Below, piece by piece: positions 1 to 23,529 of a stretch of DNA of 23,529 nucleotides. Under the pieces are notes generated by a model. That model ran no database searches. It had not been told where the DNA came from and worked only from the letters and a program-made list of their open reading frames with translations. Positions within the stretch are counted from its first letter, which is position 1. Each line of letters begins with the position of its first letter. The position numbers were made by a program, and so were the translations under genes. This stretch comes from a virus, in the IMG/VR virus record IMGVR_UViG_3300017788_000176, positions 1 through 23,529 of that record; one strand, given 5' to 3'.

Positions 1-3000
1 AAATCATTTAATTTTAATTTTTGACTATCCGATAACTGGGGTTCTAAATATAGACCAGAAATTTCTGATATACATCTGCTGTTTTCACTGTATCCGTTTT
101 TCCACCAATCTATATAATTCCAATATCTTCTGGTGTCAAAATCTTGTGTTAACGATCTAAAAAATGTTTTATTTTTTTCATTAAATTGATAAATGGACCA
201 ATAATTGTTATATGTTTCATCGGAATTAATTAAAACCGAGAAAGCTCTAACAGTTAAAATTACACTGTCATATTTTTTACCAGTGTTTAAAATTTTAGGA
301 TCGATTACTCTACCCTGATTATCTATAGACACAGATATCTTAGCACCTACCCCCGTACCAGAAATAACCACCGGCGGAGCCACTCTATAACCAAAACCTG
401 GATCGATAATATCAACTGATTCGATCGCACCATCTATTATATTAGCACGTAAAAGAGCCGGTTTCACTCTAGCAAAATTAACATTAATTAATTCAGAATA
501 ATTTTCTAACACCAAATCATAAAGATTAAGAGCCTTATTTGGAACTTCGTCAACAGAATTTAAATTTTTAAAATTGATCGTTTCTGCAAATGCCCTAGTT
601 TTTAAAATTAAGTTAACGTCGTTGACAAAAATTTTAAGTGCGGTCTTTCTATCAACAAACATTGTCTGGCGGGGCCTAAACATTATTCCATATCGTTGTT
701 TCGGAGATAGGTCTGGATCTGGTACTTTATTTCCCACAGAATCATAACCGATCAAACTATCAATCCACTTTTGCTCTATTTTAATAGGTGGTAAACTATT
801 TTCGTCGTCTTCTGTTAATAAAACATATTCATTGTGTACTAAATTAACACGATCATTTGTTTTATAAAATTTAATATTCAATAAACTATCATTAGATGTT
901 AAAGTATTTTCAAAATTATAGGCTAAAATTTTATCTTTATCAATAAAAGAAATAAAAGGAATTCCGGAAGAAGAAGGATTTAAAATATAAAGTGCAATTT
1001 CTGCAGTAGATAACTTTCTGTCTCGATGATTAGGAACGATAACAGAATTCTTTACCCAATAATAGTAAAGACGCTTAACTGTTACTCCTGTTGTTTCATC
1101 CACTATTTCTTTTGTATTGTAAATTGTAGAATCTGTGTAAAGAGGTTGACCGGAAATATTATTATTCAATCCCTCGGCGCTATCGGCTATCTCTGACCAT
1201 TCGACTGGAGTCAGAGTTGTTTCAACCCATTCACAAACATCAATAACTGATCCTTCAGCAAGTTTGTACCAATGCCCAATTCTATAAGATAGAGAATCTT
1301 GCTCAGCGTTGATCCACTTTACCTTTTTTAAATTAAACCAGACCTTTCCGACATAATTATCATACCAAGACCTGTTCGAATCAACAATTACGGTGTCCGG
1401 GCCGGTAGAATAAATTGCAGGATCATACGGATTTTTAAATTTAATTTCTTGTTCTACAATGCCTAAAAATTTATTCTTATAATGATCAACTATATCAACA
1501 TCAGCAATTTTTTCGTTTTTAACACTGTCATAAAGACCAACACTCTTTAAAAGAGAAATATTAGTCTGACGTTCCTGCTTTCCAACATTTTTCCAAATTA
1601 GATCAGAGTTAGATTTAAAGAACTTTCGAACCTGACCTGTTTTTTGAGAACTCTCAGTGTATTCTGGCGATCCGATAACGATGACATTATTTTTACTATC
1701 TATAGAAATTCCAAACCCTTCGTCAGGAACAAGTTCTGCGGTTAATTCTTCAGATAAAAAATATTCTGTATCTTGTTTTTCAAACACATACACTTTACCA
1801 GTTGAAACTTTTGCGGCATAAAATGTTGATGTATTAGAATCAAACGTTGTTCTGTTATTATCAAATCTTGGTCGAATCTTGCTCACGGAGTTTCTGGCTC
1901 CGATAATTATCTGTTCTGCATCAGGAGTTATTTTTACGGTATTTCCAAATAATTGAAAATTTGTAATGTCAGTTCCTTCGAATTTACTGGTTATTTTATA
2001 CACACCCTCGCTAGACAATTTAAATGTATAAACATACCCATTATCGACAAGATTGGTATTTCCGTAGGGCGCAGATGCAACTATTGTTGAACCAGAATCA
2101 TCTATATCTACAGAAAATCCAAATTTATCTCCGGCTTCCAATACTTCAATTCCTATATCTGTAATAGCTGAAATATTTTGATTGCTTACAGTTTGATACA
2201 ATCGATAAACGCCAGACTCGTTTCTTCTATATATAAAGATCTTTCCAAATTGTTTATTTGCACTGTCGAACGCATAAGAATCAAGCAACACCCATCCGAC
2301 CGTAAGTGGAGGTATATCGTTGAAACTAGCAGAACCTGTATATCTATAATATTCTGTTTGATATCTAACAACGTCACCGCTTAAATATGTTTGATAGGAT
2401 TTCCAAACTCCTTTGTATCCTGTAAATATTCTATCGTCACCATTTGGAGAGCCAACTACCAAGACAGAAGCATCTTTATTAAAAGATATTGAATAACCAA
2501 ATTCGTCTCCTGGTTTTACGATTTCTGGCATTCTAAAAATTTCCCCGCTGGGCAGTACGCCAACCTCAGTCATTAACCCATCAGATACCACAGCCGCACT
2601 GGTCGGAAGAGAACTTTGAGTAATCGTATCCTCCATCTCAATCCAGTTAGATAAATTAGACGAAATTAAAGAAGTGGTATCGGCCACCGCTTTCCATAAC
2701 TTATTTTCATGCCAGACTATCGATCCCGCGGGATATAAACTTCCCGGTTGATATATTCCTAAATAATTCGTATCTTCTATAAGTTCCCATTCATCATTAT
2801 TCAATGTATAAAGATAAACTGCTCCTGTAGCATTATTAGCACCAGGAGAAGATATAGCCAGATAATATTTTTCTCTATCATACCCCGAAGTAATAGAAGA
2901 CCCAAAAAATTCGTTTGCCTGTGGACGGGGACTTACTATTGAGGTTTTTTCTATCCATTGATCGTTTTGCCATTTATAAATTGTAACTAGACCTTGTTTT

Positions 3001-6000
3001 ATATGACCGGCATCACCTTGTGTTGTAATAGACCAGAATGCCGGATTAGTTGGAAGATTTCCAATTGTTGTCTGAATAGCCATGTAAGAAAACGTGCTAA
3101 ATTTAACAATATCTCCTGGTTTGTAGGTCCTTGTTGGAGAATATAAATTTATAAAATTATCTGCAGGAATATTTTTGACCAATTCCCAATCATCAGTATA
3201 AATGTTAATCGTACTACCATCACCGTTGATATTGCGTTTTGCTCTCCATAATTTTCCTGCAAAAACTACAATATCATTTTGATTGTAAGTAAAAGTTGTA
3301 TTAAATATCCCTTTATATCTCGAACCGATGCCACTGGTCAATGGTGATCCTACAAAAAGCCAAGTTTCATCGCGAGTACTTTCTAATGTATAGCCAAATT
3401 TATTTAAAAGATTGTTTTCAAATGCATCTGGTGCAAACAAAGTCTGTACATTTCGAAGTCCATCATTAAAATCATCTCGATATATTGCTACAGCATTTGA
3501 CCCGGGTAGTGAAGCTACTATCTGAGATCTTTTTTCTAAATAAAGAACTGCCTGACCGGTTTTTTGAGGTTGAGTAAATCCAAAATCGATAATTTTTCTG
3601 TTATTGAATATTGAATTAGTTTTTTCTAATACTTCCCATCTTTGATTTTCATCTTTGTCGATAAAAATCTTATCTCCTTTTTTCAATTTTGGTAATTCAA
3701 ATCTAGAAATATTTTTTGATTTTTCAAATCTACAATTAGCAAAATAACCAATACCTGCTCCCGAACTATCTTCTATATTCGGATCATCTTTAGGTAATGT
3801 ATCTAATATAATATCGTAATTTGATGTGGATTTTACTTTGAAAAAACCTGAAAGATTTGAAATACCATCAATACCAATAATGTCGCCAGATTTATAATTA
3901 GGAACAGATAAACAAGTTAACACAACCGTTTTATCCTGAACATTTCTAGATACTGCATCTATTATTAAACTGTCTCTGGTATAGCGCAATACCGTCCACT
4001 GTTCGGGTTCTAAAAAGGTTACCCAGATATGATTTCCAAATTTAATCTGAGAAATATCCAGATCCAAAATATTATCGATCGATTTAACCGTTAGATCTAT
4101 TTGATCTTCCCTAACATAACCGGCAGTTCTATTATACTGATCATAATATTTTGTAGGGGCGATTTCACTTGTTAACGGAATAGGTTTAATAGTAAAATCA
4201 CTTGCTACTATTCTATAATAAAGATCAGGAACATCTATCGATTCAACGAAATCTCTAATTAAAATCGGCTGAGGTGAAGTTCTAAAATTTCCTTTTCTCA
4301 AAGGAAATTCTATTTCAGTGAATTGATCACTTCCTCCATATTGACCAACTCTGACGGCCCATTCTTCTTTTAAAGAAATACTGGCTCTGTCTGTTCTACT
4401 TAATTTATCAAAAATTTTATTGATAGAATTTGCTGTGCCTTTTTCTCGTATGAATCCCTGATAAATTTTAAATTGACTTATAGAATCTTCACTTAAATTC
4501 TTTAGATATTCTCTTTCTTGATACCCAATTGTGTGTCTTGCCAAATCTCTCTGGCTAGAACTTACACCCTCAGAATCGAGATCAAAATAATCTTCAAATT
4601 GATTAATTTTATAATCAAAATTAGGAATCAGTCCCTTAACAGGAATTTTATCTAATTTCGACCATTTAGTCTCATCAAACGATTCGATCGCATCCTGTCT
4701 AACTTGACTGGTCCAATAAAATTCTTTATATCTAACTATATCACCTAATTTATAATCAACAAATGGTTGCCAGTCCTGTATATTAACATTATCAAAAATA
4801 AATCCAGGACTAGTATAATCTCCATCCCAATCTGTAGTTCTATACCCAATTACCTTAATTCTTTCTTGTCTATAACCAGACGATTTATCGTAAAGAACGT
4901 CATTAAAAACAGTTCGATCATCAAAAATTACTACGTGTTCTTTTAAAACAAAATTAATGCTTACAAAATATATTCCGTCAAATGTATCGCTAGATACTTT
5001 TATTGAAAAACTTTGATAATCTCTGTTCATATCTAACGAAGTAATCGGAAAAACCGTACCATCTTTTTTGTATACCGAATAATCATTAAACCCTGTAATT
5101 AACGATTCAACTGAACCTAAATTATAATTAATGCGAAACTCATACGCTGCTGGACTGAGAGTTATTAATTGACCTTCTGCCCAATTATGTTTTGTCCAAA
5201 ACATGAACTCTTTGATCGAAGTTGTCCAATCATTTACTGTTTGTGTTTCATAATTATATCGATCAAAAACTATTCCCAACGATGTTAAATATTTTTCATA
5301 TCCAAAAATAAAATCAGCAACAGATTGAATCGTTGGTAGAACTGTAGAATATTTTAATTTCCTCAATTCTGCATCATTAAAGACCTGTCTTTTTAATAAT
5401 TCAACTGCACCGACCTGTTCTAGTCTGGCTATTTGCTTGAACTGTTCAGAATCGAAGGTAGCACCACTTTCGTGACCTTTTGTTACCTTGTAATATTTTT
5501 CGCCAAACTTAACTATCTGACCGATAGAATAAAATTTATTAGACTCCCAATTAAGGAAAGAGTCAGTAACGCCGCCGACCGAAATCAACGGATCTGATTT
5601 AGTTTCTATTGGTTGATAATAATTAAAAAATGGATTTTTATTATCATATCCCGAAACTTTCCATCCCGTGTTAACTTTTTCAAGTATTATACCGCTATAA
5701 TTTATTTGTCGGAAAGGAGTACTGACATTAAAAATTATTTCGTAATTTTCCGGAGGTATAAAAATTCCACTGTTTTTAGATTTTGGATTTTTACTATCTA
5801 AAACATATTTTTGTTGATCAATATCAACAAACCCCTTTATTTTATTCGAGAGCCTAACATCTATATTTTTAATTTTGTTGATTAAAATATCTGTAGACTT
5901 GTCATTGCCTTTTAAATAATCATACAGATAATTAATCAATCCCGATGTTTGCTGACCACCGGTTATCGGAAATACTAAATTTTTTAAATTAAAAAACAAT

Positions 6001-9000
6001 CCAGTTGGCTCGTAAATTGTCTGATTTAATTTATTATTTTTAATCCTAGATATATCAAAAGCTTTTGTAATAAATTCAAAAGGTCTTACTAAACACATAG
6101 CAATAATCATTGCGTAAGGATATAAAGAACTTTTTCTCCAGGCAGCTTCTGCGGGACCCATATCACCGAATTCAAAATTTCCATTCGCATTAATTAATGT
6201 AAATTCTTGTGCAAGATTTGATTGCAAAGGACTTAGTAATTTTCCTTCTTGATCTACCGGCAAATGAGATAACAACGATGGTCTCTTATATCTATCGTAT
6301 ATTCCTTTTTTAGGACCTTGTTTAATAATTCCGTCTCTAAGATCTTCCCAAAGTATAAGATTTCCATTTGTATATGGTGCAGGACCGTATTCATCTTCCC
6401 ACCAATCTGGTTTTTCGCTAAAACCTAACATTTCCCAAGGACAGGTATGAGGACGATCTGTATCATATAACCAATGATAAATTCCTCTCCACCATCCTAA
6501 AAGATTTTTCTCTAAAGAAAAATCTGTCATATTACTATATGTGTAGGTAAAAGAATTTTCCCCATCAAAATAACTATTATTCACATAATCAATGTTACTG
6601 GAGGTAATCCATTTTAAGAAGTAAGGTTCTAACACAGAATTTATATCATCTCTTGAATAAATTCCAGAATTGTAGTAACCTCCAGCTATTTGATCAATAT
6701 CAAAAATCTCAGAATTATAGTTTATTTTAATATTATTATAAATTCTTTTTTCTAATTCTAATATCAAATCATCTCTAAAATCATTATAGGCGACGGTAAT
6801 ACTACCGTCATGCCCTTGTATTATTCTTGTAGGATCTATATATGTGTTATCTATAAAGATGTCAGGTGTATATTTTTTATAAAGACCTAATTTAGTAGGT
6901 GTCGGTGGAATAAAATTAAATGCCGTCGAATCGTATTCTCTAATTTCGATACTATCGCCGTCATTGATGTCTATTAATAATTCAAGATAACCAAACGTCG
7001 AATTAAAAATATAATCTTTATTGATTAGTAATTGTTGATTATTTCTGTACACATATACTGCTTTTCTTGATACTTTAGTCGGATCAAATTTTTCTCTCAA
7101 GGCAAAAACTTTAATTTGGTCTTCGACTTGATAAACTATTTTTTGATATGAACCAGATCCAATCATATCAGAATCGGCAAACGCAAAATCTGAATTTTTT
7201 ACTCTAGACATTTCGTCAATGATTTTATCGACAAAATTTACAGGATCTTGATCATATTCTAAAGTAGTAGATAACGACAAGAAACTATTTTTAAACTGTT
7301 GATATTCCGATGATGCATACTCGATTGATTTTATAACGTTAATATCTTTATTACATAATAAAGTTAAAGACAATGCAGCACTACTTTCGTGTTTGATAAG
7401 CCGTCTTCCAAATTTTTGAAATCCAGATATATCTCTTATATTACTATTACCAGGATATTGACCTTGAAAATTGTCATCTAATTCTACCATTGTTCCAAGA
7501 TGATCTAAAATCTGACCATAAGTAAATTCAGAAAGATCATCATTTAACGGATTCTTCTCTAAACTTAAAGGAATTTCATAATAACCCCTGTCTGGTACAG
7601 AATCTGTATAAACTTTAATCGTTACAGTGTCACCTTTAGAAAACTTTGTCGAAAAAACAAAACTTTGATTTCTGTTACCTGTTCTCTGATAAGTCTCATT
7701 AAACAACACCCCGTTCTTGTAAAATACTATTTTTTCTCGAGACGCTATTCTCCAAAATGTAGAATTAAAAGAAATGATATTAGTGTCTTCCTCTACAAAA
7801 ATAGAATCTACAATCGGTTGTAAAAACTCTCTATCTGTCCTGATCCATGTATTATCAAAAATTGCAGTCAAATCAGAATTATTTTTTAAAAATCCCGAAT
7901 TAATTTTATCCGAAATAACTGATCCGTTTTGATAAGTAAAGAAATCCTTATCCCAGTTGACTTCGAACAGAACATCGCCGATGTTATCAATGTTAAGATA
8001 ACTTAAGGGTATCGATAATTCTTTATCTACGATTCCGTTTCCTGGTTTGTAACTAATAATTTTAGTTCCGATAAAAGAACTAACGGGGTATTTTTTTAAA
8101 TCAGAAAAACTGTCGCCATCATTATCAAAGACATCAAATAAAGGAGATTGATTTATTGATGTTTTGTCTTGACTTTTTTCCCATTTATTTTCTGTCAAGG
8201 AATAATGAAACATTTTTCCTTTGTACAGTTTTCCTTTTTTAATTAGAACACAATCTCCATGATTAATCGGTTCGTTGATTTCCACAAGACTTATCTGCTG
8301 TCCGGTCGGCCCGCTGTATTGAGTCGATATAAATCTAACTTCATAAATTTTATTATTTGCTGTACTGTCTGTATCAGCAGTAAAAAGAACTCTTGCCCCC
8401 TGAAATAAGTTTTGACCATCTATATTATAACCAGAGCTTCCTTCAATCGTGCTAAAAATATCCTTTGTAAAATTATCAACAAGATCAATCGATGGTTTAG
8501 CTCTAACGCCGTGATTGAAAAGTTGTATATTAGGTTGAAATTCAATTATAGGTCTTTTAGCTCTATTAAGTTCATTAAAATCTGCTTCAGTGCTATTAAA
8601 GGAAGCTGAATATTCGATCACATCTCTATGAAACCATCTATTTCCTCTAGCCCACGGGTTTAAATCTAAACTAGATCTATTAGATGTTATATAATCTTTA
8701 ATGTCTGGAAATGAAGCTGCTTCATCAAACGGTACAGTATCAAATCCGTCATTATCAAAAAGAACTTCAATATCTGAATTCCCCAAAACAGGAGAAATTA
8801 AATCATCAAAATTTATCAACGAGATCGATTTTCCTACTCCTTCAACTATCCATGATCCTCGAGAATATTTTTCCGGAAATACTGTGCCGCTGAACGAAAC
8901 TTGAAGACCATTTGTAAATTTTACATTATTGCTGCTGGTATATGCCAATTTTTGTAATATTTCTTTTTCAACGTCAATAAATGTGTTTTCAGTAATATCT

Positions 9001-9953
9001 TTGATTATAATCAACCCATTTCTTAAAGGTTCTTGATCGCTGGTATAAAACAATTTATCAGGTGCATCAACGGGAACTGTAAAGGTTAATATACCGACTT
9101 CAACTCCGTTGTTAGTAATACCTTTCGAATAATAATTTACAGATTCAAGGGTAGTTATTTCCCAGTCTTGAGAAAATTCATCGATTGTACTACCATCTCC
9201 TTCTATATCAACTTTGGCTTTCCATAATTTTCCATTGTATTCTACTACTTCTCCTGCTTTATAAAACATTGCAGGATTAAACTGTCCGGCCACTAAATTA
9301 ACAGAATTAGTTGTTCTGATAGAAAATCTGTTTCTTGGAGAATTAATTTCAAAATTATAGGTTTGACCTCTGTATAAAACTATATCGGGATTATAAGATT
9401 TTCCGTCAGGATAGAATAACCAGCCTGTTAAATCGCCAGTTTCACCTGTTCTTACTCGATAAGTAGATTCTATATTCTGTGTAACTCCTGCAACTGATAC
9501 GATCGAAGGTCCGTTAGGTAACCAATAATATTCTCTAAAATTAACAAACTTATCCCATTCAATTGGGGGATTCCACGAATATACTTCGTTATTAGTAATT
9601 AAATCATCTCTCTCTGATTCGTTAGAAAAGAATCTAATTTGATTCTTAAAATCAAGATAATCATAAAAGTTATCAACAGTTCCTTTGTCATTTAAAACAA
9701 CAACGCCCGGTTCTAATTGATATCGACTTCGTAGAGTATCGTCGTTATCTAAATAGACGTCTTTCGAATTATAAGATTTTCCGTAACGACGACCGATATA
9801 TCCGTATAACTTTTCTAAAACTCCCGGCTGTATTAAAGGATCAAATACACCGCCAAGAAATTTAGAGTTTGAATCTGTTTTAAAAACAGAAGGTAAAAAA
9901 TCTATCGATCTTCTAATAGGTAAACCACTTTGATTAAAAACTTTATCTGTCAT
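1..9953 (-). CDS. Giant virion structural protein in the gp7 position (partial, C-terminus outside window)
   Basis: The frame opens at an ATG one base after the gp6 stop (TAATATG) and stays open to the window edge, at least 3317 codons; the stop lies to the left. There is no good Shine-Dalgarno, so translation is probably coupled to gp6. Blocks I recall from giant virion proteins of marine T4-like and jumbo phages include EYYWLPNGP near residue 140, NPWARGNRWFHRDVI near 440, GHDGSITVAYNDFRDDL near 1045, DTDRPHTCPWEMLGF near 1160, GPAEAAWRKSSLYPYAM near 1265 and YVGKVWFNLKKVKW near 2850. Residues about 2175-2775 hold five FG-GAP-like repeats, with Trp-rich modules between them; another such module lies near 225-264. 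Gly-rich repeats lie near 3170-3230. T4 has gp7 (about 1030 aa) after gp6, so a wedge or wedge-attached fibre role is likely, but I see no clear gp7 similarity. No signal peptide or membrane segment is evident. Confidence 0.85.
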   Translation of the reverse strand, partial: MTDKVFNQSGLPIRRSIDFLPSVFKTDSNSKFLGGVFDPLIQPGVLEKLYGYIGRRYGKSYNSKDVYLDNDDTLRSRYQLEPGVVVLNDKGTVDNFYDYLDFKNQIRFFSNESERDDLITNNEVYSWNPPIEWDKFVNFREYYWLPNGPSIVSVAGVTQNIESTYRVRTGETGDLTGWLFYPDGKSYNPDIVLYRGQTYNFEINSPRNRFSIRTTNSVNLVAGQFNPAMFYKAGEVVEYNGKLWKAKVDIEGDGSTIDEFSQDWEITTLESVNYYSKGITNNGVEVGILTFTVPVDAPDKLFYTSDQEPLRNGLIIIKDITENTFIDVEKEILQKLAYTSSNNVKFTNGLQVSFSGTVFPEKYSRGSWIVEGVGKSISLINFDDLISPVLGNSDIEVLFDNDGFDTVPFDEAASFPDIKDYITSNRSSLDLNPWARGNRWFHRDVIEYSASFNSTEADFNELNRAKRPIIEFQPNIQLFNHGVRAKPSIDLVDNFTKDIFSTIEGSSGYNIDGQNLFQGARVLFTADTDSTANNKIYEVRFISTQYSGPTGQQISLVEINEPINHGDCVLIKKGKLYKGKMFHYSLTENKWEKSQDKTSINQSPLFDVFDNDGDSFSDLKKYPVSSFIGTKIISYKPGNGIVDKELSIPLSYLNIDNIGDVLFEVNWDKDFFTYQNGSVISDKINSGFLKNNSDLTAIFDNTWIRTDREFLQPIVDSIFVEEDTNIISFNSTFWRIASREKIVFYKNGVLFNETYQRTGNRNQSFVFSTKFSKGDTVTIKVYTDSVPDRGYYEIPLSLEKNPLNDDLSEFTYGQILDHLGTMVELDDNFQGQYPGNSNIRDISGFQKFGRRLIKHESSAALSLTLLCNKDINVIKSIEYASSEYQQFKNSFLSLSTTLEYDQDPVNFVDKIIDEMSRVKNSDFAFADSDMIGSGSYQKIVYQVEDQIKVFALREKFDPTKVSRKAVYVYRNNQQLLINKDYIFNSTFGYLELLIDINDGDSIEIREYDSTAFNFIPPTPTKLGLYKKYTPDIFIDNTYIDPTRIIQGHDGSITVAYNDFRDDLILELEKRIYNNIKINYNSEIFDIDQIAGGYYNSGIYSRDDINSVLEPYFLKWITSSNIDYVNNSYFDGENSFTYTYSNMTDFSLEKNLLGWWRGIYHWLYDTDRPHTCPWEMLGFSEKPDWWEDEYGPAPYTNGNLILWEDLRDGIIKQGPKKGIYDRYKRPSLLSHLPVDQEGKLLSPLQSNLAQEFTLINANGNFEFGDMGPAEAAWRKSSLYPYAMIIAMCLVRPFEFITKAFDISRIKNNKLNQTIYEPTGLFFNLKNLVFPITGGQQTSGLINYLYDYLKGNDKSTDILINKIKNIDVRLSNKIKGFVDIDQQKYVLDSKNPKSKNSGIFIPPENYEIIFNVSTPFRQINYSGIILEKVNTGWKVSGYDNKNPFFNYYQPIETKSDPLISVGGVTDSFLNWESNKFYSIGQIVKFGEKYYKVTKGHESGATFDSEQFKQIARLEQVGAVELLKRQVFNDAELRKLKYSTVLPTIQSVADFIFGYEKYLTSLGIVFDRYNYETQTVNDWTTSIKEFMFWTKHNWAEGQLITLSPAAYEFRINYNLGSVESLITGFNDYSVYKKDGTVFPITSLDMNRDYQSFSIKVSSDTFDGIYFVSINFVLKEHVVIFDDRTVFNDVLYDKSSGYRQERIKVIGYRTTDWDGDYTSPGFIFDNVNIQDWQPFVDYKLGDIVRYKEFYWTSQVRQDAIESFDETKWSKLDKIPVKGLIPNFDYKINQFEDYFDLDSEGVSSSQRDLARHTIGYQEREYLKNLSEDSISQFKIYQGFIREKGTANSINKIFDKLSRTDRASISLKEEWAVRVGQYGGSDQFTEIEFPLRKGNFRTSPQPILIRDFVESIDVPDLYYRIVASDFTIKPIPLTSEIAPTKYYDQYNRTAGYVREDQIDLTVKSIDNILDLDISQIKFGNHIWVTFLEPEQWTVLRYTRDSLIIDAVSRNVQDKTVVLTCLSVPNYKSGDIIGIDGISNLSGFFKVKSTSNYDIILDTLPKDDPNIEDSSGAGIGYFANCRFEKSKNISRFELPKLKKGDKIFIDKDENQRWEVLEKTNSIFNNRKIIDFGFTQPQKTGQAVLYLEKRSQIVASLPGSNAVAIYRDDFNDGLRNVQTLFAPDAFENNLLNKFGYTLESTRDETWLFVGSPLTSGIGSRYKGIFNTTFTYNQNDIVVFAGKLWRAKRNINGDGSTINIYTDDWELVKNIPADNFINLYSPTRTYKPGDIVKFSTFSYMAIQTTIGNLPTNPAFWSITTQGDAGHIKQGLVTIYKWQNDQWIEKTSIVSPRPQANEFFGSSITSGYDREKYYLAISSPGANNATGAVYLYTLNNDEWELIEDTNYLGIYQPGSLYPAGSIVWHENKLWKAVADTTSLISSNLSNWIEMEDTITQSSLPTSAAVVSDGLMTEVGVLPSGEIFRMPEIVKPGDEFGYSISFNKDASVLVVGSPNGDDRIFTGYKGVWKSYQTYLSGDVVRYQTEYYRYTGSASFNDIPPLTVGWVLLDSYAFDSANKQFGKIFIYRRNESGVYRLYQTVSNQNISAITDIGIEVLEAGDKFGFSVDIDDSGSTIVASAPYGNTNLVDNGYVYTFKLSSEGVYKITSKFEGTDITNFQLFGNTVKITPDAEQIIIGARNSVSKIRPRFDNNRTTFDSNTSTFYAAKVSTGKVYVFEKQDTEYFLSEELTAELVPDEGFGISIDSKNNVIVIGSPEYTESSQKTGQVRKFFKSNSDLIWKNVGKQERQTNISLLKSVGLYDSVKNEKIADVDIVDHYKNKFLGIVEQEIKFKNPYDPAIYSTGPDTVIVDSNRSWYDNYVGKVWFNLKKVKWINAEQDSLSYRIGHWYKLAEGSVIDVCEWVETTLTPVEWSEIADSAEGLNNNISGQPLYTDSTIYNTKEIVDETTGVTVKRLYYYWVKNSVIVPNHRDRKLSTAEIALYILNPSSSGIPFISFIDKDKILAYNFENTLTSNDSLLNIKFYKTNDRVNLVHNEYVLLTEDDENSLPPIKIEQKWIDSLIGYDSVGNKVPDPDLSPKQRYGIMFRPRQTMFVDRKTALKIFVNDVNLILKTRAFAETINFKNLNSVDEVPNKALNLYDLVLENYSELINVNFARVKPALLRANIIDGAIESVDIIDPGFGYRVAPPVVISGTGVGAKISVSIDNQGRVIDPKILNTGKKYDSVILTVRAFSVLINSDETYNNYWSIYQFNEKNKTFFRSLTQDFDTRRYWNYIDWWKNGYSENSRCISEISGLYLEPQLSDSQKLKLND
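1640..3430 (-). other. FG-GAP-like beta-propeller region inside the giant structural protein
   Basis: Five segments follow the pattern FG-x-S/T-hydrophobic, about 12-15 residues, then hydrophobic-hydrophobic-x-S/G-x-P. They are NKFGYTLESTRDETWLFVGS (about 3338-3400), NEFFGSSITSG followed by YLAISSPGANNATGAVYLYT (about 2815-2915), GDEFGYSISFNKDASVLVVG (about 2440-2510), GDKFGFSVDIDDSGSTIVAS (about 2065-2130) and EGFGISIDSKNNVIVIGS (about 1665-1725). Two are followed by G-x-V-Y-x-(Y/F), as in FG-GAP/integrin-alpha blades. A degenerate half-repeat, SQIVASLPGSNAVAIYR, precedes the first near 3500-3550. Repeat spacing is about 120-165 residues, wider than a plain blade, because Trp-rich modules are inserted in at least three of the gaps. 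The family call rests on motif pattern only. Confidence 0.6.
3178..3300 (-). repeat. Trp-rich CBM5/12-like module, copy 2, in the giant protein
   Basis: Residues about 2218-2258 read FTYNQNDIVVFAGKLWRAKR then NINGDGSTINIYTDDWEL. This is the closest relative of the module at about 9160-9290. It sits between the first and second FG-GAP-like segments. Looser versions occur nearby and elsewhere: YKPGDIVKF (about 3030-3135), YPAGSIVWHENKLWKAV (about 2640-2760), YLSGDVVRYQTEYYRYTG (about 2290-2395), YKLGDIVRYKEFYWTSQ (about 4685-4775) and YSIGQIVKFGEKYYKVT (about 5470-5545). The family seems to have expanded inside this one gene. Confidence 0.5.
6361..6830 (-). other. Conserved core blocks of the giant structural protein
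   Basis: Two blocks lie close together. One reads GHDGSITVAYNDFRDDLILE followed by LEKRIYNNIK (residues about 1041-1074). The other, about residues 1150-1193, contains GWWRGIYHWLYDTDRPHTC and KPDWWEDEYGPAPYTNG. I recall nearly the same wording in very large virion proteins of other marine and jumbo phages, so this is probably the ancestral, assembly-critical part of the protein, with the repeat modules added on the C-terminal side. The charged and aromatic residues (DTDRPH, PWEM, WWEDEYGP) suggest a compact fold. Its function is unknown to me. Confidence 0.5.
9160..9290 (-). repeat. Trp-rich CBM5/12-like module, copy 1, in the giant protein
   Basis: Residues about 222-264 read FYKAGEVVEYNGKLWKAKVD then IEGDGSTIDEFSQDWEI. 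The pattern (turn, G-x-V-V/I-x-Y-x-G-K-L-W-K/R-A, a GDGSTI turn and a closing D-W-E) resembles the small three-stranded carbohydrate-binding modules of the CBM5/12 type, which bind glycans through exposed aromatic residues. It shares the core GKLW-x-AK, GDGSTI and DWE with the copy at about 3178-3300, roughly 2000 residues away. Glycan binding is inferred, not shown. Confidence 0.5.
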
Positions 9954-9954
9954 A

Positions 9955-12900
9955 TTATTGGCTCGTGTTGCTTATAATGTTAGCTGTAGGTATATTAATT
10001 TCTGAAGCGGTTATACCTGTGACTATCTGGATATCATCGACTGTTGCTGCACTGGTAAAAATTTCATCTTGTCTTGATTGTATTTCAAATAAGCTTCCAA
10101 AACTTTGATCAGTTTGTCTAGGCACGATAACAAAATTACTGATATCTGGCGAGACAGCATTAATAACATATGTTGCCATTTCACTAAAATAAAATTTATC
10201 TCCAAAATCCCAACCGTTAACATTAAAAAATTCATTGATGGCATTAACAATCCTAACCTTTAAATCATTATCGCTTATAGATTTACTAGGATTTTTAACT
10301 ACCTTGAACTGAGCTCTAAACTGAGGATCTGCTTTGGCTCCAAATAATGGTTTGAATTGTACCGGATGATATATAATCTCATCACTGACTGATTTAATAT
10401 TATTTAAATTTAAACCGAATTGATTTCTTAAATCATTGCTAGTCTGAGGAATTGGCATTTCGCCGTTGTTTCTTAAATAGTTTAAAAATGCTGTTTCATA
10501 GGCTTTTGTTAAAATATAAACATCAATGATATTACTAACACTAGGATCTATTCTTCTATCATCAGTGGCATGATGTATGTACTGAAATCTAATATCATTT
10601 CTACCTATATTCGCTCTATAAGAACTATCTATTTCAAAAATTTTACTACCTGTACTAGTCAAAGTTACTTTCTTTACCACATCCTCGTTGACATCATAAA
10701 AATAAACCAACCTACCAACGGTATATTCTAAATCGTTAATATTCACATTGTTTGTCTTATCTCTGATTAAAATTTGACCATTAGAATTATCTATGTATCT
10801 ATAAACTTCAGCACCATATTCGTCGTTTTCTTTTTTAAAAAATAGATATTTTAAATTTTGATCTTCGCCAGCAATAATCTCAAATGCTTCTGGATTATCA
10901 ATAACTCCATCGTCGTCTGAATCATAAAATCCTAGTTTTACAGAATTCGTAGTTTGGTATCCGTCGCTAAAACGCAGACTGTCTTTAATTTCAAAAACAA
11001 TATCTTGTTTAAGCGGTAACAATTCTGTATAATCCGAATTAATATTTAAAATGTTTATTTGATCTTTGATCACTTTTCCTGTTTTAGAATCGTAAACTTT
11101 TTCTTGATTATCAAAATAAAATCTATTTTGTCTTAGACTCTCAAAAATATATTCCAGTTCTCTAATATGAATATTGTATTGAACACCGTCATAAACAAAT
11201 GCTAATAACCAAGAACTATCTAAGTTTAATCCAGACGAGTCTCCACTATATGCAGAACTAAAAAATGGAGAATTTATATTTAAATTTGACGACATTATAA
11301 TTTTCCATTTACGCTCGTCCTTGCTATATCTCAAACCAAAATTAGTAAAAGAAAACATTAAATTTATCATTTCGGTTTCTAGACCAGAATCTAAATCAGA
11401 AGTAAATCGAGGAACAATTCTCTTGATAGCAGCATCAGTAGGCACTACTTCACTAAATGTGATAGGTCCCAATCCGTTAGGCAATATACCTCTATCGGCA
11501 TTTGTTCCATCACCAACAGCATTGATTACTTTTACCCAGAGTCTATCCTTCTGTTCAGCATCATTCGAGTTTATATTGACTATAATTCCGTTTTTAAATG
11601 CTTTTCCGGGAGGAGGAACAAATTTTACCAACGAACCAACTTCAAAAAATCTCATGTTGGTAGAGGTATAATTACCAACTTTAATTTTTGTTCTATCATT
11701 AGCGTTCTGAAAATATCCTGTAGACGAATCAATATCTTTAGTAACCTGTAACCAGTGAATGTTGTTATCTGTAAAAATTACTTTGTCAAATTTCGTAAGA
11801 TAAAAATTATAAATTCCAAAAGAAGAAATTTCTTTTTCAATGGTATTTCTGATAAAATTAATAATTTGAGCTCTCGAATTAAATTTAAATGATATTGCTT
11901 TTTCAACATCATTTTTGTATATTAGACCATCGTCAGCAAAAACATTCACTGTAGAATATTTTCCTGTTGCATCAACTATATCAAAATTTCTACTAATACC
12001 AGAACTTGTTCTATTAATAGATTTTATTTTAAGAATTTCTTGAGACGACGACAACGGAGCTAAATTATAATCTTCAGCTGTGATCATTCTATTCTGAGTA
12101 TAATAAATTGCTGGTGCTTTTGTCCGTATACTTTCAATGTCTTCTGATGCGGCAGCATTAGATACCGTATATTTCAACGCTAAACTAATTGTCAAAGTAT
12201 GTACTGAACCGGATTTACTTATATAAGGAACATTTATATTAATACCCCTCATCTCTGAAGGATTAATAGAATATGTTAGACCATTACTAACTCTATAATA
12301 TGCTCTGAAGGAACCCTTAGGGAGATTTCCATAAATGCCGTCAGAAAACTGAAGATCAACCTTGTCGTCGGCATTAGTGATAACAGAATATATATTTCTT
12401 ATATTTTTACTAATACTATTATAAACAATATTGTTACCGACTAGATTTGAAACCTGAGTCCACTCGTCCCCTTGCGACCCATCGGCATTCAACGAAAACA
12501 ACCATACATCATCATTGTTGATATTAGCATTTTCTATGCTAACACGTTCGTTAGTAGTGGGCTGTTCAATTGCAAAATCAGCTAATTCGAGACTTCCTTG
12601 TTTGAACAAAAGATAAAACCCAGTGTCAGCGCTCGATGCTCCTTTTCCGTCACTTTTAAAAATAAATCCCATCTGGGTTCCGGGTGTCGGTTTTTCTTCG
12701 ATAATTGTATTATTTTCAGAAACAACTGTGCTCACTAATTCAAAAACTGTAGATCTCGATGCCACTGCCTTATTAAAGGTGAATATAGGAACGTCGCCAC
12801 TAAATGTATTAAAAACATATTGTTGTGTCTTGATACCATTAACTGTAAATTCTCCCTGACTTCTGCCAAATTCTAGATTTGTGGCCATAGCAGAATTTAA

Positions 12901-13377
12901 CACCAAAAGAAATTGTTCGTACCAATTAGAATTAGTAGGATCATTCCATATTATAGTCTGTCTTGATAGATTTCTACCATTACTATCTAGAATAGTTTCT
13001 GTAGTACTTACAGTGTCAAATTTTAATAAACCGGATGCAGCTATATTTCTTTTAGCATTATATGAAAGCATCTTAGCTAATCTGATAACACTTTCCTTTC
13101 TGTCGGCTAAATCAATAAAATTTTCTCGACTGGCTAAATCTATACGGAATGCTAAACTTTGTCCTAAAAACGCTATGGCATCTATGAGCGCAAGATATTC
13201 AGAACTTTCAATGTAATCGTTAAAATCTTCAGGATAGTTTTCTCTAAGATATGTAATCATTACTCTTCTTAGATTTTCAAAATCGTAAGATTTAAAATCA
13301 GCATTTTTAAATGTCTGATAAATTTTAGTCCAATCTTCGGATAAAATTAAATTATTTTGTCTGGCTGTTGTTGTCAT
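9955..13377 (-). CDS. 6: Baseplate wedge protein gp6
   Basis: gp6 dimers form the inner ring joining the baseplate wedges around the hub. The N-terminus carries the characteristic block EDWTKIYQTFKNADFKSYDF, then YLRENYPEDFNDYIESSEY and the helix LIDAIAFLGQSLAFRIDLAS (residues about 15-90). A baseplate J-like region follows, with NRMITAEDYNLAPLSSSQEI near residue 430. The C-terminus has VNGWDFGDKFYFSEMATYVI and SPDISNFVIVPRQTDQSFGS, typical of the family. At 1140 residues it is much longer than T4 gp6 (about 660), so the middle holds extra material. The ATG follows AGGATA at about 9 bases. The upstream gap of 47 bp to gp25 is the largest inside the operon, and I see no clear promoter in it. 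The stop is one base from the giant gene's start. Confidence 0.93.
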   Translation of the reverse strand: MTTTARQNNLILSEDWTKIYQTFKNADFKSYDFENLRRVMITYLRENYPEDFNDYIESSEYLALIDAIAFLGQSLAFRIDLASRENFIDLADRKESVIRLAKMLSYNAKRNIAASGLLKFDTVSTTETILDSNGRNLSRQTIIWNDPTNSNWYEQFLLVLNSAMATNLEFGRSQGEFTVNGIKTQQYVFNTFSGDVPIFTFNKAVASRSTVFELVSTVVSENNTIIEEKPTPGTQMGFIFKSDGKGASSADTGFYLLFKQGSLELADFAIEQPTTNERVSIENANINNDDVWLFSLNADGSQGDEWTQVSNLVGNNIVYNSISKNIRNIYSVITNADDKVDLQFSDGIYGNLPKGSFRAYYRVSNGLTYSINPSEMRGININVPYISKSGSVHTLTISLALKYTVSNAAASEDIESIRTKAPAIYYTQNRMITAEDYNLAPLSSSQEILKIKSINRTSSGISRNFDIVDATGKYSTVNVFADDGLIYKNDVEKAISFKFNSRAQIINFIRNTIEKEISSFGIYNFYLTKFDKVIFTDNNIHWLQVTKDIDSSTGYFQNANDRTKIKVGNYTSTNMRFFEVGSLVKFVPPPGKAFKNGIIVNINSNDAEQKDRLWVKVINAVGDGTNADRGILPNGLGPITFSEVVPTDAAIKRIVPRFTSDLDSGLETEMINLMFSFTNFGLRYSKDERKWKIIMSSNLNINSPFFSSAYSGDSSGLNLDSSWLLAFVYDGVQYNIHIRELEYIFESLRQNRFYFDNQEKVYDSKTGKVIKDQINILNINSDYTELLPLKQDIVFEIKDSLRFSDGYQTTNSVKLGFYDSDDDGVIDNPEAFEIIAGEDQNLKYLFFKKENDEYGAEVYRYIDNSNGQILIRDKTNNVNINDLEYTVGRLVYFYDVNEDVVKKVTLTSTGSKIFEIDSSYRANIGRNDIRFQYIHHATDDRRIDPSVSNIIDVYILTKAYETAFLNYLRNNGEMPIPQTSNDLRNQFGLNLNNIKSVSDEIIYHPVQFKPLFGAKADPQFRAQFKVVKNPSKSISDNDLKVRIVNAINEFFNVNGWDFGDKFYFSEMATYVINAVSPDISNFVIVPRQTDQSFGSLFEIQSRQDEIFTSAATVDDIQIVTGITASEINIPTANIISNTSQ

Positions 13378-13424: not shown

Positions 13425-13865
13425 TTATCTAATAATGTTGTTTTCGCGATCAAAATCAAAGGTCATTCGTTCATTAATATTAAACGGCATATAAACACAG
13501 TCGACTTCGATCCGTATACCTTGTTGCGTTGAATCGATTGTTACGTCGTTAATAGCGATGCGGGGATCATAATTAATAATTTCCTCTACATCTCTAATTA
13601 CGATTTTTTTATTTTCTTCCGTCATCGGTTCAAATATCATATCCCATATAACTGTTCCAAAATCAGGATTTTCTAATTTTTCACCTTTTTTAATATGAAA
13701 GTGATTAATCAAATCTCTTTTTACTAATTCAATATCATACAGTTTAAATCGTTTTTTGGTTTCTTGGCTGCTGAATCCTTTGTAGGTAAACACACCGGTA
13801 TTGTCATCACCTGTCGTGGCTTTGTTTACTGCTACTGTTTTTTGATTGTATAGTTTATTTCCCAT
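13425..13865 (-). CDS. 25: Baseplate wedge protein gp25
   Basis: This is a small wedge protein of the gp25/GPW/TssE family, which in T4 contacts gp6 and gp53 and helps nucleate the sheath. The core HFHIKKGEKLENPDFGTVIW (residues about 55-74), FEPMTEENKKIVIRDVEEII and NYDPRIAINDVTID is characteristic. The family's Glu-Pro-Arg motif appears here as Asp-Pro-Arg (residues 100-102). At 146 residues it is slightly longer than T4 gp25 (132) because of a polar, Thr/Lys-rich N-terminal stretch of about 40 residues. Its ATG overlaps the gp5 stop (TAATG), so translation is probably coupled to gp5. Confidence 0.93.
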   Translation of the reverse strand: MGNKLYNQKTVAVNKATTGDDNTGVFTYKGFSSQETKKRFKLYDIELVKRDLINHFHIKKGEKLENPDFGTVIWDMIFEPMTEENKKIVIRDVEEIINYDPRIAINDVTIDSTQQGIRIEVDCVYMPFNINERMTFDFDRENNIIR

Positions 13866-15505
13866 TAGTTTGATTCCCTATCGGTGTTTAACTTCGACCA
13901 CACATCCGGAGCAAAATTTTCATGGCCCAACCAAGGTTCGTGCATAGGTATTCTTCTCATAATACTTGAAATCGTTTCTGGATTTTGATATTTTTTTTCC
14001 CAACCTAATTTTGTATCTGTTAAGAAATTTTCTCGCATACCTAATGGCACAGGCGGAGTTGCCTCAACTGCTTCTTTGGCCCTGGGACCATTCATGTCAA
14101 TTCGTGCCGCTTGCTCCGTATAATTTCCTCCACTGAAAACATCGATATCACTTACGGATGTAATTTTTGTTTGTTTTCCAGTTTTTATATCTAATGATCC
14201 CACCGTTGTTAATTTAGTGTCAGTTAAAATTGTTTGATCATAATTGCCATCGACCTGTATTTTTCCATCGCCGCCCACGATCAAATTATAATTAAACCCA
14301 GCCTCAATGTGTATTTTTCCGTTGTCAAAGCCTGCAGCATCAGTTTTACTTCTTGGTTTGTGCAACTCGTCAGGACTTTGATATTCTCCAATCGCTTTAA
14401 TGTTAATATTTCTACCGGCTTCTAAATTTAGATCCCTATCAGCTCTGATGTTAAGATCATTTTGTGTATGGATGGATATACTATCGTCCGAAAAAATATC
14501 TATTTTTCCGTTGCTGGTCATTTCGATCCAAACAGTGCCTCGAGAATTACCTATGTAAATTAGATCTTCCGAGTTATGCATTAATAACTGATGGCCTGTA
14601 CGAGTTCGTATTCTAAAATATTCAGAATATGGAATAGTCGGGTCGCCCTTTTCGCCTTCCTTATTAGTGTCTGCGTATTCCACTCCCCCTTTTGAAGCAT
14701 GGGTTTTTCTTTGATATTGATCATCACCATCATCCATAACAATCTGGGTCCCACCTAATCTACTAACAGGAACGGGCGTTTGGGTCGGTGTGTCTTTCTT
14801 TCCAATGTACGATTTTTTTCCTTCTTGATCCAATGGTCCCGGCGTTGATATTCCAAATACCATTCCTGGAAGGTCTCTTCTCACTGTCGAGGGTGCGGTT
14901 CCTCTGCAATCATCCTCTAATAACCCCTGTTCTAAAAATTTATCGGCAATTGGATGAACTGGTTTCTTAATTTTTGGAACGTTGAGATTTGTTGTTAAGT
15001 CGTTCGTTACTCTATTAATTTCAGCTACAGGTAAGGGCATCTCTGTATTATATTTTTTCTTATCATCAGGAGTAATGTCCAATTCAAGACTGCCACCGAT
15101 TGCTGGGATCATATGATTTGCAAATCTATCAGGAACACATGCAAACCAATATCCGTCACTGATATCACCGGCGACAAACATACATAAAACCGTTACACCG
15201 ACATCTGGCGGGACGAACCACATACCATAAGATTTCTGAGTATCATTAAATCCTGTTTTTGCATCAGTATCGACGGCTTTATTTTCCCCCATGAACGAAA
15301 ACCCAGTAGCTCCATAAAATGGCGTGGCACACTTCAGCGTGACAGTCTGAGAATCCTCGGCCAGTTCATTTCCTTGTTCTCTTAATAAAGTGCATACTAA
15401 TGCCCCCATATAAGAAGGATCAAGATGCGAAACTACAATCGCTTTATAAACTCCTGGATTCAGTTTAACACGTTGATTATCGGGTGCTCTATAATTAATA
15501 GACAT
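13865..15505 (-). CDS. 5: Baseplate hub and central spike protein gp5, lysozyme-less form
   Basis: gp5 trimers form the needle under the baseplate hub. Residues about 15-130 look like the OB-fold domain (GVYKAIVVSHLDPSYMGALV; SYGMWFVPPDVGVTVLCMFV). Residues about 297-475 are a repetitive beta-helix spike like that of VgrG (RIRTRTGHQLLMHNSEDLIY; SISIHTQNDLNIRADRDLNL). T4 gp5 (575 aa) has a T4-lysozyme domain between these parts. Here the linker (about 140-296) contains HPIADKFLEQGLLEDDCRGT and PGMVFGISTPGP and shows no lysozyme catalytic signature. A short C-terminal tail, RRIPMHEPWLGHENF, follows the helix, as I recall for marine relatives. A strong Shine-Dalgarno (AAGGAT) lies 7 bases before the ATG and overlaps the upstream stop codon. 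Confidence 0.9.
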   Translation of the reverse strand: MSINYRAPDNQRVKLNPGVYKAIVVSHLDPSYMGALVCTLLREQGNELAEDSQTVTLKCATPFYGATGFSFMGENKAVDTDAKTGFNDTQKSYGMWFVPPDVGVTVLCMFVAGDISDGYWFACVPDRFANHMIPAIGGSLELDITPDDKKKYNTEMPLPVAEINRVTNDLTTNLNVPKIKKPVHPIADKFLEQGLLEDDCRGTAPSTVRRDLPGMVFGISTPGPLDQEGKKSYIGKKDTPTQTPVPVSRLGGTQIVMDDGDDQYQRKTHASKGGVEYADTNKEGEKGDPTIPYSEYFRIRTRTGHQLLMHNSEDLIYIGNSRGTVWIEMTSNGKIDIFSDDSISIHTQNDLNIRADRDLNLEAGRNINIKAIGEYQSPDELHKPRSKTDAAGFDNGKIHIEAGFNYNLIVGGDGKIQVDGNYDQTILTDTKLTTVGSLDIKTGKQTKITSVSDIDVFSGGNYTEQAARIDMNGPRAKEAVEATPPVPLGMRENFLTDTKLGWEKKYQNPETISSIMRRIPMHEPWLGHENFAPDVWSKLNTDRESN

Positions 15506-17805: not shown

Positions 17806-17816
17806 TCTAAACTCCC
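17803..17816 (-). promoter_or_regulatory. GTG start with strong Shine-Dalgarno for the hub gene
   Basis: Reading on the minus strand, GGGAG is followed by six bases and GTG, with the TAG stop of gp53 lying in the spacer. No in-frame ATG lies nearby upstream, so GTG is the best-supported start. It is the only non-ATG start among the genes of this window. Confidence 0.7.
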
Positions 17817-18106
17817 AAGAATTGTGTCAGATTAGATTTTTTTGGAAGATAGATTGATAAGCCAGGAACAAAATCAAATATCGGATCCTTCATGGTGTTC
17901 ATATTTCTTTGAACAAATACCCACCACAATTTTGAATCGCCGTATAGATCATAGGCTAATAGATCTGGCCTATATTTGTATTGATTTTCTATTGAATAAA
18001 GAAAATCATCAGGTTCGGCAGGAATCGGACGTATGTTTAATAATTCTAAATAAAGATTGTTTTGACTTGTATTAAACCAAGGACTAGTATTTTTATAAAT
18101 TGCCAT
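17807..18106 (-). CDS. 53: Baseplate wedge protein gp53 (LysM-like)
   Basis: gp53 in T4 clamps neighbouring wedges together through a LysM-like fold. Here 99 residues carry the family hallmarks: IPAEPDDFLYSIENQYKYRP (residues about 28-47), LAYDLYGDSKLWWVFVQRN (about 50-68) and DPIFDFVPGLSIYLP (about 74-88), the last two resembling a LysM half with a closing IYLP strand. It is about half the length of T4 gp53 (196 aa), so the T4 C-terminal part is absent; the short form may be normal in marine relatives. The ATG is one base after the previous stop (TAAAATG), with AGGA about 10 bases upstream. The N-terminus (SPWFNTSQNN) is polar with no signal peptide. Confidence 0.88.
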   Translation of the reverse strand: MAIYKNTSPWFNTSQNNLYLELLNIRPIPAEPDDFLYSIENQYKYRPDLLAYDLYGDSKLWWVFVQRNMNTMKDPIFDFVPGLSIYLPKKSNLTQFLGV

Positions 18107-22951: not shown

Positions 22952-23190
22952 AAGAAGATCGCGATTACCACGAGATGATGATACAGGCTTTTCAAGAATA
23001 TTTTAAGTATCATAATAAACTCTTAGCCGATTGTAATGTAACAGCTGGAGTTAAAGCTCGATTTTGGTTAGGTAAGATTAAAGAAGCTGCAACACTAGGC
23101 AAAAGAGAAATACTTAAAACAAATAAAGAAATTAAAAAATCCAGAAATGGCAAACCAGGACGACCAAAAAGAATAATTAAGGACAAATGA
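22948..23190 (+). CDS. Small basic protein of unknown function between gp46 and the GIY-YIG gene
   Basis: I do not recognise this 80-residue protein. The first half (DYHEMMIQAFQEYFKYHNKL) is likely helical and amphipathic. The middle has ARFWLGKIKEAATLGKREIL. The C-terminal 20 residues are strongly basic and contain GKPGRPKR (68-75), which resembles an AT-hook (GRP core flanked by basic residues). DNA binding is therefore possible but unproven. It overlaps gp46 and the downstream gene by ATGA at both ends, so it is almost certainly translated with them and may assist the same DNA-processing work. Confidence 0.7.
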   Translation: MKEDRDYHEMMIQAFQEYFKYHNKLLADCNVTAGVKARFWLGKIKEAATLGKREILKTNKEIKKSRNGKPGRPKRIIKDK

Positions 23191-23529
23191 CATGGTTGTA
23201 TCAGAACAAAACTTTAGATGAAATTCCAGAAGGCTACATTGGCTTTGTATATCTCATTACAAATCTAAAAACAGGGCAAAAATACGTAGGCAAGAAATTA
23301 GCACAATTTAAGCGCACAAAACCACCTCTCAAAGGCAAACGACTTAAAAGAAGATCCACAATTGAAAGCGATTGGCGCGATTACTGGGGTTCTTCCGATA
23401 GGCTCAACGCAGATGTACAGGCACTAGGTCCGGAAAACTTCACTAGAGAAATACTTTATCTTTGCAAATCCAAGGCAGAAATGTCATATCTAGAGGCAAG
23501 AGAGCAGTTTGAACGCAGGGTTTTAGAGT
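23187..23529 (+). CDS. GIY-YIG family nuclease-like protein (partial, C-terminus outside window)
   Basis: The ATG overlaps the preceding stop (ATGA), with AAGGA just upstream; the frame is open to the right edge (114 codons). The GIY-YIG fold is visible as GFVYLITNLKTGQKYVGKK (residues 19-37), a basic stretch KGKRLKRR (49-56), ESDWRDYWGSS (60-70), ALGPENFTREIL (79-90) and the candidate catalytic glutamate in SYLEAREQF (about residue 103). Tyr22, Tyr33 and Gly35 match the motif. Such proteins in T4-like phages include Seg-type homing endonucleases and uncharacterised stand-alone nucleases. The basic insert and YWGSS resemble the second group as I recall it. Its place in a tight cotranscribed run argues for a resident function over a recent insertion. 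Confidence 0.78.
   Translation, partial: MTWLYQNKTLDEIPEGYIGFVYLITNLKTGQKYVGKKLAQFKRTKPPLKGKRLKRRSTIESDWRDYWGSSDRLNADVQALGPENFTREILYLCKSKAEMSYLEAREQFERRVLE

Follow-up and report, generated by a model that had tools for sequence, protein, structure and literature searches.

The receptor-binding protein of Staphylococcus phage phi11 (Gp45) holds a five-bladed propeller platform in the baseplate, with a cavity proposed for GlcNAc (PMC4901313), and provides a precedent for a propeller as a receptor-binding part. A second baseplate propeller, the seven-bladed gp131C of the jumbo myophage phiKZ (4GBF), lies at the baseplate periphery; similar guesses on its function were unconfirmed when reviewed (PMC4901313). 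FG-GAP repeats are known from the integrin alpha propeller and, as FG-GAP_2 (PF14312), from repeat proteins found in bacteria and in certain jumbo phages (Phosso). Lastly, Cis13 (All3316; 7b5h), a part of the contractile injection system of Anabaena, contains a CBM5/12-like module that is not known to be inserted in a propeller. In the open-licence literature on FG-GAP together with phage baseplate, propeller or jumbo phage, we found no description of an FG-GAP propeller in a phage baseplate; judged by titles and abstract openings, the open-licence papers that pair FG-GAP with phage are not on phage tails.

Here we analyse a window of 23,529 nucleotides, positions 1 to 23,529 of the IMG/VR virus record IMGVR_UViG_3300017788_000176. 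The following features of a T4-like baseplate gene cluster are considered:

3..9953, minus strand: giant virion structural protein, start at 9953, at least 3317 residues, C-terminus beyond the window edge (phrog_10938, 1015 bits)
1563..3566, minus strand: FG-GAP beta-propeller domain of the giant protein, residues 2130-2797 (Pfam, motif, AlphaFold and inter-blade homology; precisely absent in L091, a related uncultured locus)
9955..13377, minus strand: T4 gp6-like baseplate wedge protein, directly upstream of the giant gene (phrog_10646, E 2.7e-291)
13425..13865, minus strand: baseplate wedge protein, putatively gp25-like (phrog_261/43)
13865..15505, minus strand: gp5-like baseplate hub protein (phrog_13211)
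17807..18106, minus strand: baseplate wedge protein, putatively gp53-like (phrog_7145)

The opposite strand carries a late sigma factor and SbcD/SbcC-like genes. An ORF at 23187-23528, open at the window end, has a start (GFVYLITNLKTGQKYVGKK) that by eye resembles a GIY-YIG nuclease. The giant gene occupies the place of T4 gene 7, directly after gene 6 (T4 order 6-7-8), and its PHROG is annotated as 'virion structural protein'. No homology to T4 gp7 was detected (hhalign 0.1% against the single T4 gp7, a weak test), profile comparison of the giant protein with T4 gp6-gp10 brought up no match, and its N-terminal profile had no PDB match. Since sequence homology of the giant protein to T4 gp6-gp10 was not detected, it is from gene order and the PHROG annotation that we infer a baseplate protein. 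The propeller is thus set in the product of a gene belonging to a T4-like baseplate cluster, in line with a first-pass annotation. Complete relatives mostly measure 4450-4940 residues, one full-length example having 4452.

Throughout the 3317 residues, the strict motif FG-x-[STV] ... [SG]-x-P is found five times only, at positions 2186, 2350, 2485, 2611 and 2747. Shuffling the region yields 0.05 strict motifs (at most 2 in 5000 shuffles) against the five observed, and shuffling the whole protein yields 0.17 on average (at most 3 in 2000). Pfam FG-GAP_2 exceeds its gathering cut-off (43.6 and 47.3 bits vs 23), while FG-GAP (PF01839) stays below it for the propeller (11.7 bits vs 22.1). Single blades score weakly in Pfam, and when the domain is cut into pieces the matches fall at the expected places. 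A sixth repeat at residue 2669 reads FG ... GAR in place of S-x-P, and a seventh blade on the N-side (2130-2180) is weak and devoid of FG. The blades are arranged as follows:

3414..3566, minus strand: blade 1, residues 2130-2180; degenerate, no FG; four AlphaFold strands and 43-51% profile similarity to blade 4
2922..3413, minus strand: blade 2, residues 2181-2344; 117-residue 2-3 loop with two CBM5/12-like modules
2763..2921, minus strand: blade 3, residues 2345-2397
2517..2762, minus strand: insert in the blade 3-4 connection, residues 2398-2479; one CBM5/12-like module
2178..2516, minus strand: blade 4, residues 2480-2592; CBM5/12-like module in the 2-3 loop
1968..2138, minus strand: blade 5, residues 2606-2662; best single FG-GAP_2 match
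1731..1967, minus strand: blade 6, residues 2663-2741; the repeat that the first-pass annotation did not spot
1563..1730, minus strand: blade 7, residues 2742-2797

After removal of the inserts, blades 2-7 are mutually homologous in profile comparison (66-99%, as against 0-6% for equal-sized flank controls); in the same comparison, blade 1 resembles blade 4 only. An AlphaFold2 model of residues 1901-3100, built from 31 sequences (mean pLDDT 74.6, pTM 0.60), predicts four strands in propeller order in each of the seven blades, mostly at a blade pLDDT of 80-95. The domain is therefore probably a seven-bladed FG-GAP propeller, whose blades would close into a ring. The profile of the propeller alone matches the propellers of integrin alpha-E, at E 0.025, and of alpha-M, at E 0.15; both matches are weak yet have the right fold.

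The first-pass annotation had read FG-x-S/T ... S/G-x-P segments in this region as the blades of a propeller. The reading frame and all five of its motifs are present, in excess of shuffled sequence and with Pfam above cut-off, but its count was too low: six repeats are recognisable in addition to the weak seventh, the one at 2669 having been overlooked because S-x-P was required where this repeat has G-A-R. It placed the domain at 1640-3430; the limits are slightly wider (1563-3566). The wide spacing that it described applies to the intervals of 164, 135 and 126 residues where modules are inserted, and not to blades 5-7, where the spacing is only 58 and 78. It had proposed a profile search and an AlphaFold prediction of five to seven blades, and the FG-GAP_2 score, the weak integrin alpha matches and the seven times four strands in propeller order agree with it; neither a non-propeller fold nor a lack of profile matches was encountered.

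How does this domain compare with the systems above? It shares with the integrin alpha propeller the FG ... G-[AS]-P repeats, probably seven four-stranded blades, upper-face loop insertions and the weak alpha-E/alpha-M matches, but it sits in a phage structural protein, has no I-domain and carries CBM5/12-like modules in its loops. The integrin calcium loops DxDxDGxxD (DxDxDG in short) are also absent on reading the region, in which the 1-2 loops span 2-5 residues and blade 5 has only D-I-D-D-S-G. By score it is a direct member of the FG-GAP_2 repeat proteins, although those of Phosso form long arrays in separate proteins rather than one propeller inside a baseplate-cluster giant protein. The likeness to phiKZ gp131C lies in the jumbo myophage setting, the probable seven blades and the baseplate; gp131C differs in being C-terminal in its own protein and in having a weak WD40/RCC1-like Pfam match below cut-off, and phiKZ gp131, considered as a relative, was rejected for want of profile similarity (hhalign 0.15%). 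The phi11 protein also has its propeller in the baseplate, but it is a homotrimeric receptor-binding protein with five blades of another propeller type. Finally, the blade 2 insert has a profile match to Cis13.

The first-pass annotation had also supposed that other modules are spliced between the blades, and this is the case: four CBM5/12-like modules in blades 2, 3/4 and 4 account for the wide repeat spacing, and three more lie elsewhere in the giant protein:

9153..9278, minus strand: CBM5/12-like module a, N-terminal part of the giant protein, outside the propeller
5430..5549, minus strand: CBM5/12-like module b, outside the propeller
4653..4772, minus strand: CBM5/12-like module c, outside the propeller
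3177..3317, minus strand: CBM5/12-like module d, blade 2
3024..3143, minus strand: CBM5/12-like module e, blade 2, forming a tandem with d; not present in the relatives listed in the alignment
2634..2753, minus strand: CBM5/12-like module f, blade 3-4 connection
2283..2417, minus strand: CBM5/12-like module g, blade 4

Summed over the giant protein, CBM_5_12 (PF02839) reaches 74.1 bits against a cut-off of 26.2, the blade 2 pair giving 32.2 bits and single copies scoring under the cut-off. The propeller inserts lead by profile to Cis13 of the Anabaena injection system and to a chitin-binding domain. Over 50 bases, the DNA of modules a and d is 78% identical (window 9184-9233 vs the blade 2 module), which suggests copying within the gene. 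Because such modules also occur elsewhere in the giant protein, they may be structural spacers. A 1114-residue ORF with about ten CBM_5_12 modules lies at 71247-72749 of IMGVR_UViG_3300021963_000035, the contig of L004/L083.

In the usual propeller topology the 2-3 and 4-1 loops share one face. Every window loop of more than 20 residues is of one of these two kinds; there are five, with 117 (blade 2), 96 (blade 3-4), 67 (blade 4), 25 and 31 residues, and the 1-2 and 3-4 loops have 2-7 residues; the decorated loops would thus form one face of the disc. Among relatives the length of the blade 3-4 connection varies between 19 and 173 residues, and that of the blade 4 loop between 8 and 85. L019, L024 and their kin are an exception: the 3-4 loop of their blade 3, on the otherwise undecorated face, has as many as about 190 residues inserted.

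The conserved part of the giant protein (residues 765-1721) matches named jumbo phages at 23-29% (Atu_ph07, SCTP-2, the PA5oct group, Phosso, the RaK2 group and others) and 80 uncultured viral loci at 50-60% identity. We surveyed the propeller site in the 60 uncultured loci in which a single frame covers both flanks: it holds 504-901 residues in 59 of them and 24 residues in L091. FG-GAP_2 is matched in 30 of the 31 aligned members and CBM_5_12 in 23. In six named jumbo phages the giant-protein homologues have other sequence at the site, with neither the repeated motif nor a Pfam FG-GAP_2 match; between the conserved flanks of Atu_ph07, Phosso, SCTP-2 and PAC2 no Pfam family rises above cut-off, and searching named phages directly with the propeller protein returned one weak match (Phosso). 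No cellular relative was found in genome contigs, and we therefore propose no host.

Three observations on relatives concern the same repeats or the same gene. Sinorhizobium phage Phosso (PV764938.1) has about 66 FG-GAP_2 matches at ~48.4-68.9 kb and 92-94.5 kb, mostly in ORFs of 3182 and 3702 residues and two smaller ones, all apart from its baseplate-cluster giant protein. Agrobacterium phage Atu_ph07 (MF403008.1) has a 409-residue ORF with four FG-GAP_2 matches at 243045-243821, away from the baseplate cluster. In L075 (3291-17299) one frame change and one in-frame stop divide the giant protein into three frames, with the propeller in the middle one; this could be sequencing error rather than real fission.

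L091 and its relative L088 are colinear to either side of the site. L091 retains the same kinds of next genes downstream, and its 217-kb contig has no FG-GAP_2 match anywhere, from which we take the propeller to be dispensable. The break falls between '...W-K-V-I-E-K' and '...V-L-A-Q-E-E-P-T-V-D-I', which suggests that the single point of insertion is the tip of a beta-hairpin. The core tree joins L091 to L088, L012 and L013 (ultrafast bootstrap 86, SH-aLRT 96), and these lie within the family that bears the propeller (100/100); because of this nesting, loss in L091 is the simpler reading, with moderate support. Widespread, cleanly absent in L091 and unmatched in six named phages, the propeller is an accessory domain of a baseplate-cluster protein that is itself conserved.

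Diversification would be expected of a strain-specific receptor tip, and dN/dS was for this reason pooled over 19 disjoint pairs. Diversifying top-face loops were not found in these pairs: the pooled value is 0.065 for the top-face loops and 0.075 for the other parts of the propeller (blade strands), and the scaffold has 0.058 and 0.074 before the propeller and 0.063 after it. The C-terminal part of the giant protein has 0.086. The highest dN/dS in the protein, 0.117 vs about 0.06, belongs to residues 1901-2109 (window ~3627-4253), just before the propeller. Purifying selection on the top-face loops is as strong as on the scaffold, which argues against a fast-evolving host-range determinant. 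Because dN/dS is low and about equal to that of the scaffold, the propeller is, by coding-sequence comparison, conserved on the short scale, and it is deletable on the long one.

Based on the above data, we propose that the conserved giant protein of the baseplate cluster bears its accessory, probably seven-bladed FG-GAP propeller as a conserved outward contact platform, a reading to which we give an even chance. The disc would stand out from the baseplate rim and, as the phage adsorbs, would hold the cell envelope or a surface polysaccharide that the hosts share, presenting one loop face to the ligand as integrin-type propellers do; it would differ in this from a strain-specific receptor-binding tip. 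The proposal draws on sequence and comparison, namely the repeats, the single insertion point, the presence through a large uncultured group, the L091 absence and the CBM5/12-like modules in blades 2-4, and it is weakened in that no ligand-binding residue was identified in the propeller. The principal competitor, a serious one that we nevertheless rate lower, is that the propeller is an assembly joint, with no host contact, on which a tail fibre, the wedge next to it or a cap protein docks. Propellers often serve as platforms for contacts between proteins, CBM5/12-like modules are found on structural parts such as Cis13 as well, and purifying selection is about as strong as on the scaffold, all of which suit a docking joint. 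A joint of this kind fits less well with the clean loss in L091 where neighbouring gene types are kept, with the lack of an FG-GAP match in the giant-protein homologues of six named jumbo phages, and with propeller loops that vary by tens to hundreds of residues between relatives. The selection result does not separate the two readings; the L091 deletion and the loop length changes lean towards the contact platform, which we prefer for this reason.

A polysaccharide-degrading (depolymerase) domain of n-bladed propeller fold is unlikely, even though such propellers rank second among the polysaccharide-degrading folds of phage proteins in one survey (PMC11326577), since the match is to FG-GAP_2 and none of the 31 members matches any glycosidase or lyase propeller family. 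FG-GAP propellers are, moreover, mostly non-catalytic. Least probable of all, to the point of being scarcely credible, are chance motifs or a repeat of another fold: weak single blades in Pfam, a blade 1 devoid of the motif and a pTM of 0.60 would speak for them, against the shuffle test, the Pfam score over cut-off, the family-wide match, the inter-blade homology and the predicted strand order. The first-pass interpretation thus holds for the FG-GAP-type propeller, the baseplate-cluster protein and the spliced modules, and less well for receptor or glycan binding, as the loops are not diversifying and the calcium loops are absent; such a role for the contact platform is plausible. A tentative and rather doubtful extension would have an integrin-type adhesion propeller, which the ancestor of the group acquired a single time and which is studded with CBM5/12-like modules on one face, form a multivalent glycan-holding disc on each baseplate wedge.

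On the evidence of its repeats and relatives, the propeller is real and widespread in its jumbo phage group, and some 670 residues of a giant protein whose sole annotation is otherwise 'virion structural protein' are assigned a fold. Few phages are known to have baseplate propellers, and what these do has seldom been settled; the present one adds another family and sits in a giant structural protein, not in a fibre. The natural deletion, together with undecorated and heavily decorated versions, makes the function of a baseplate propeller testable by comparison or domain deletion. If the glycan-holding disc is true, it would be a previously undescribed kind of device for phage attachment.
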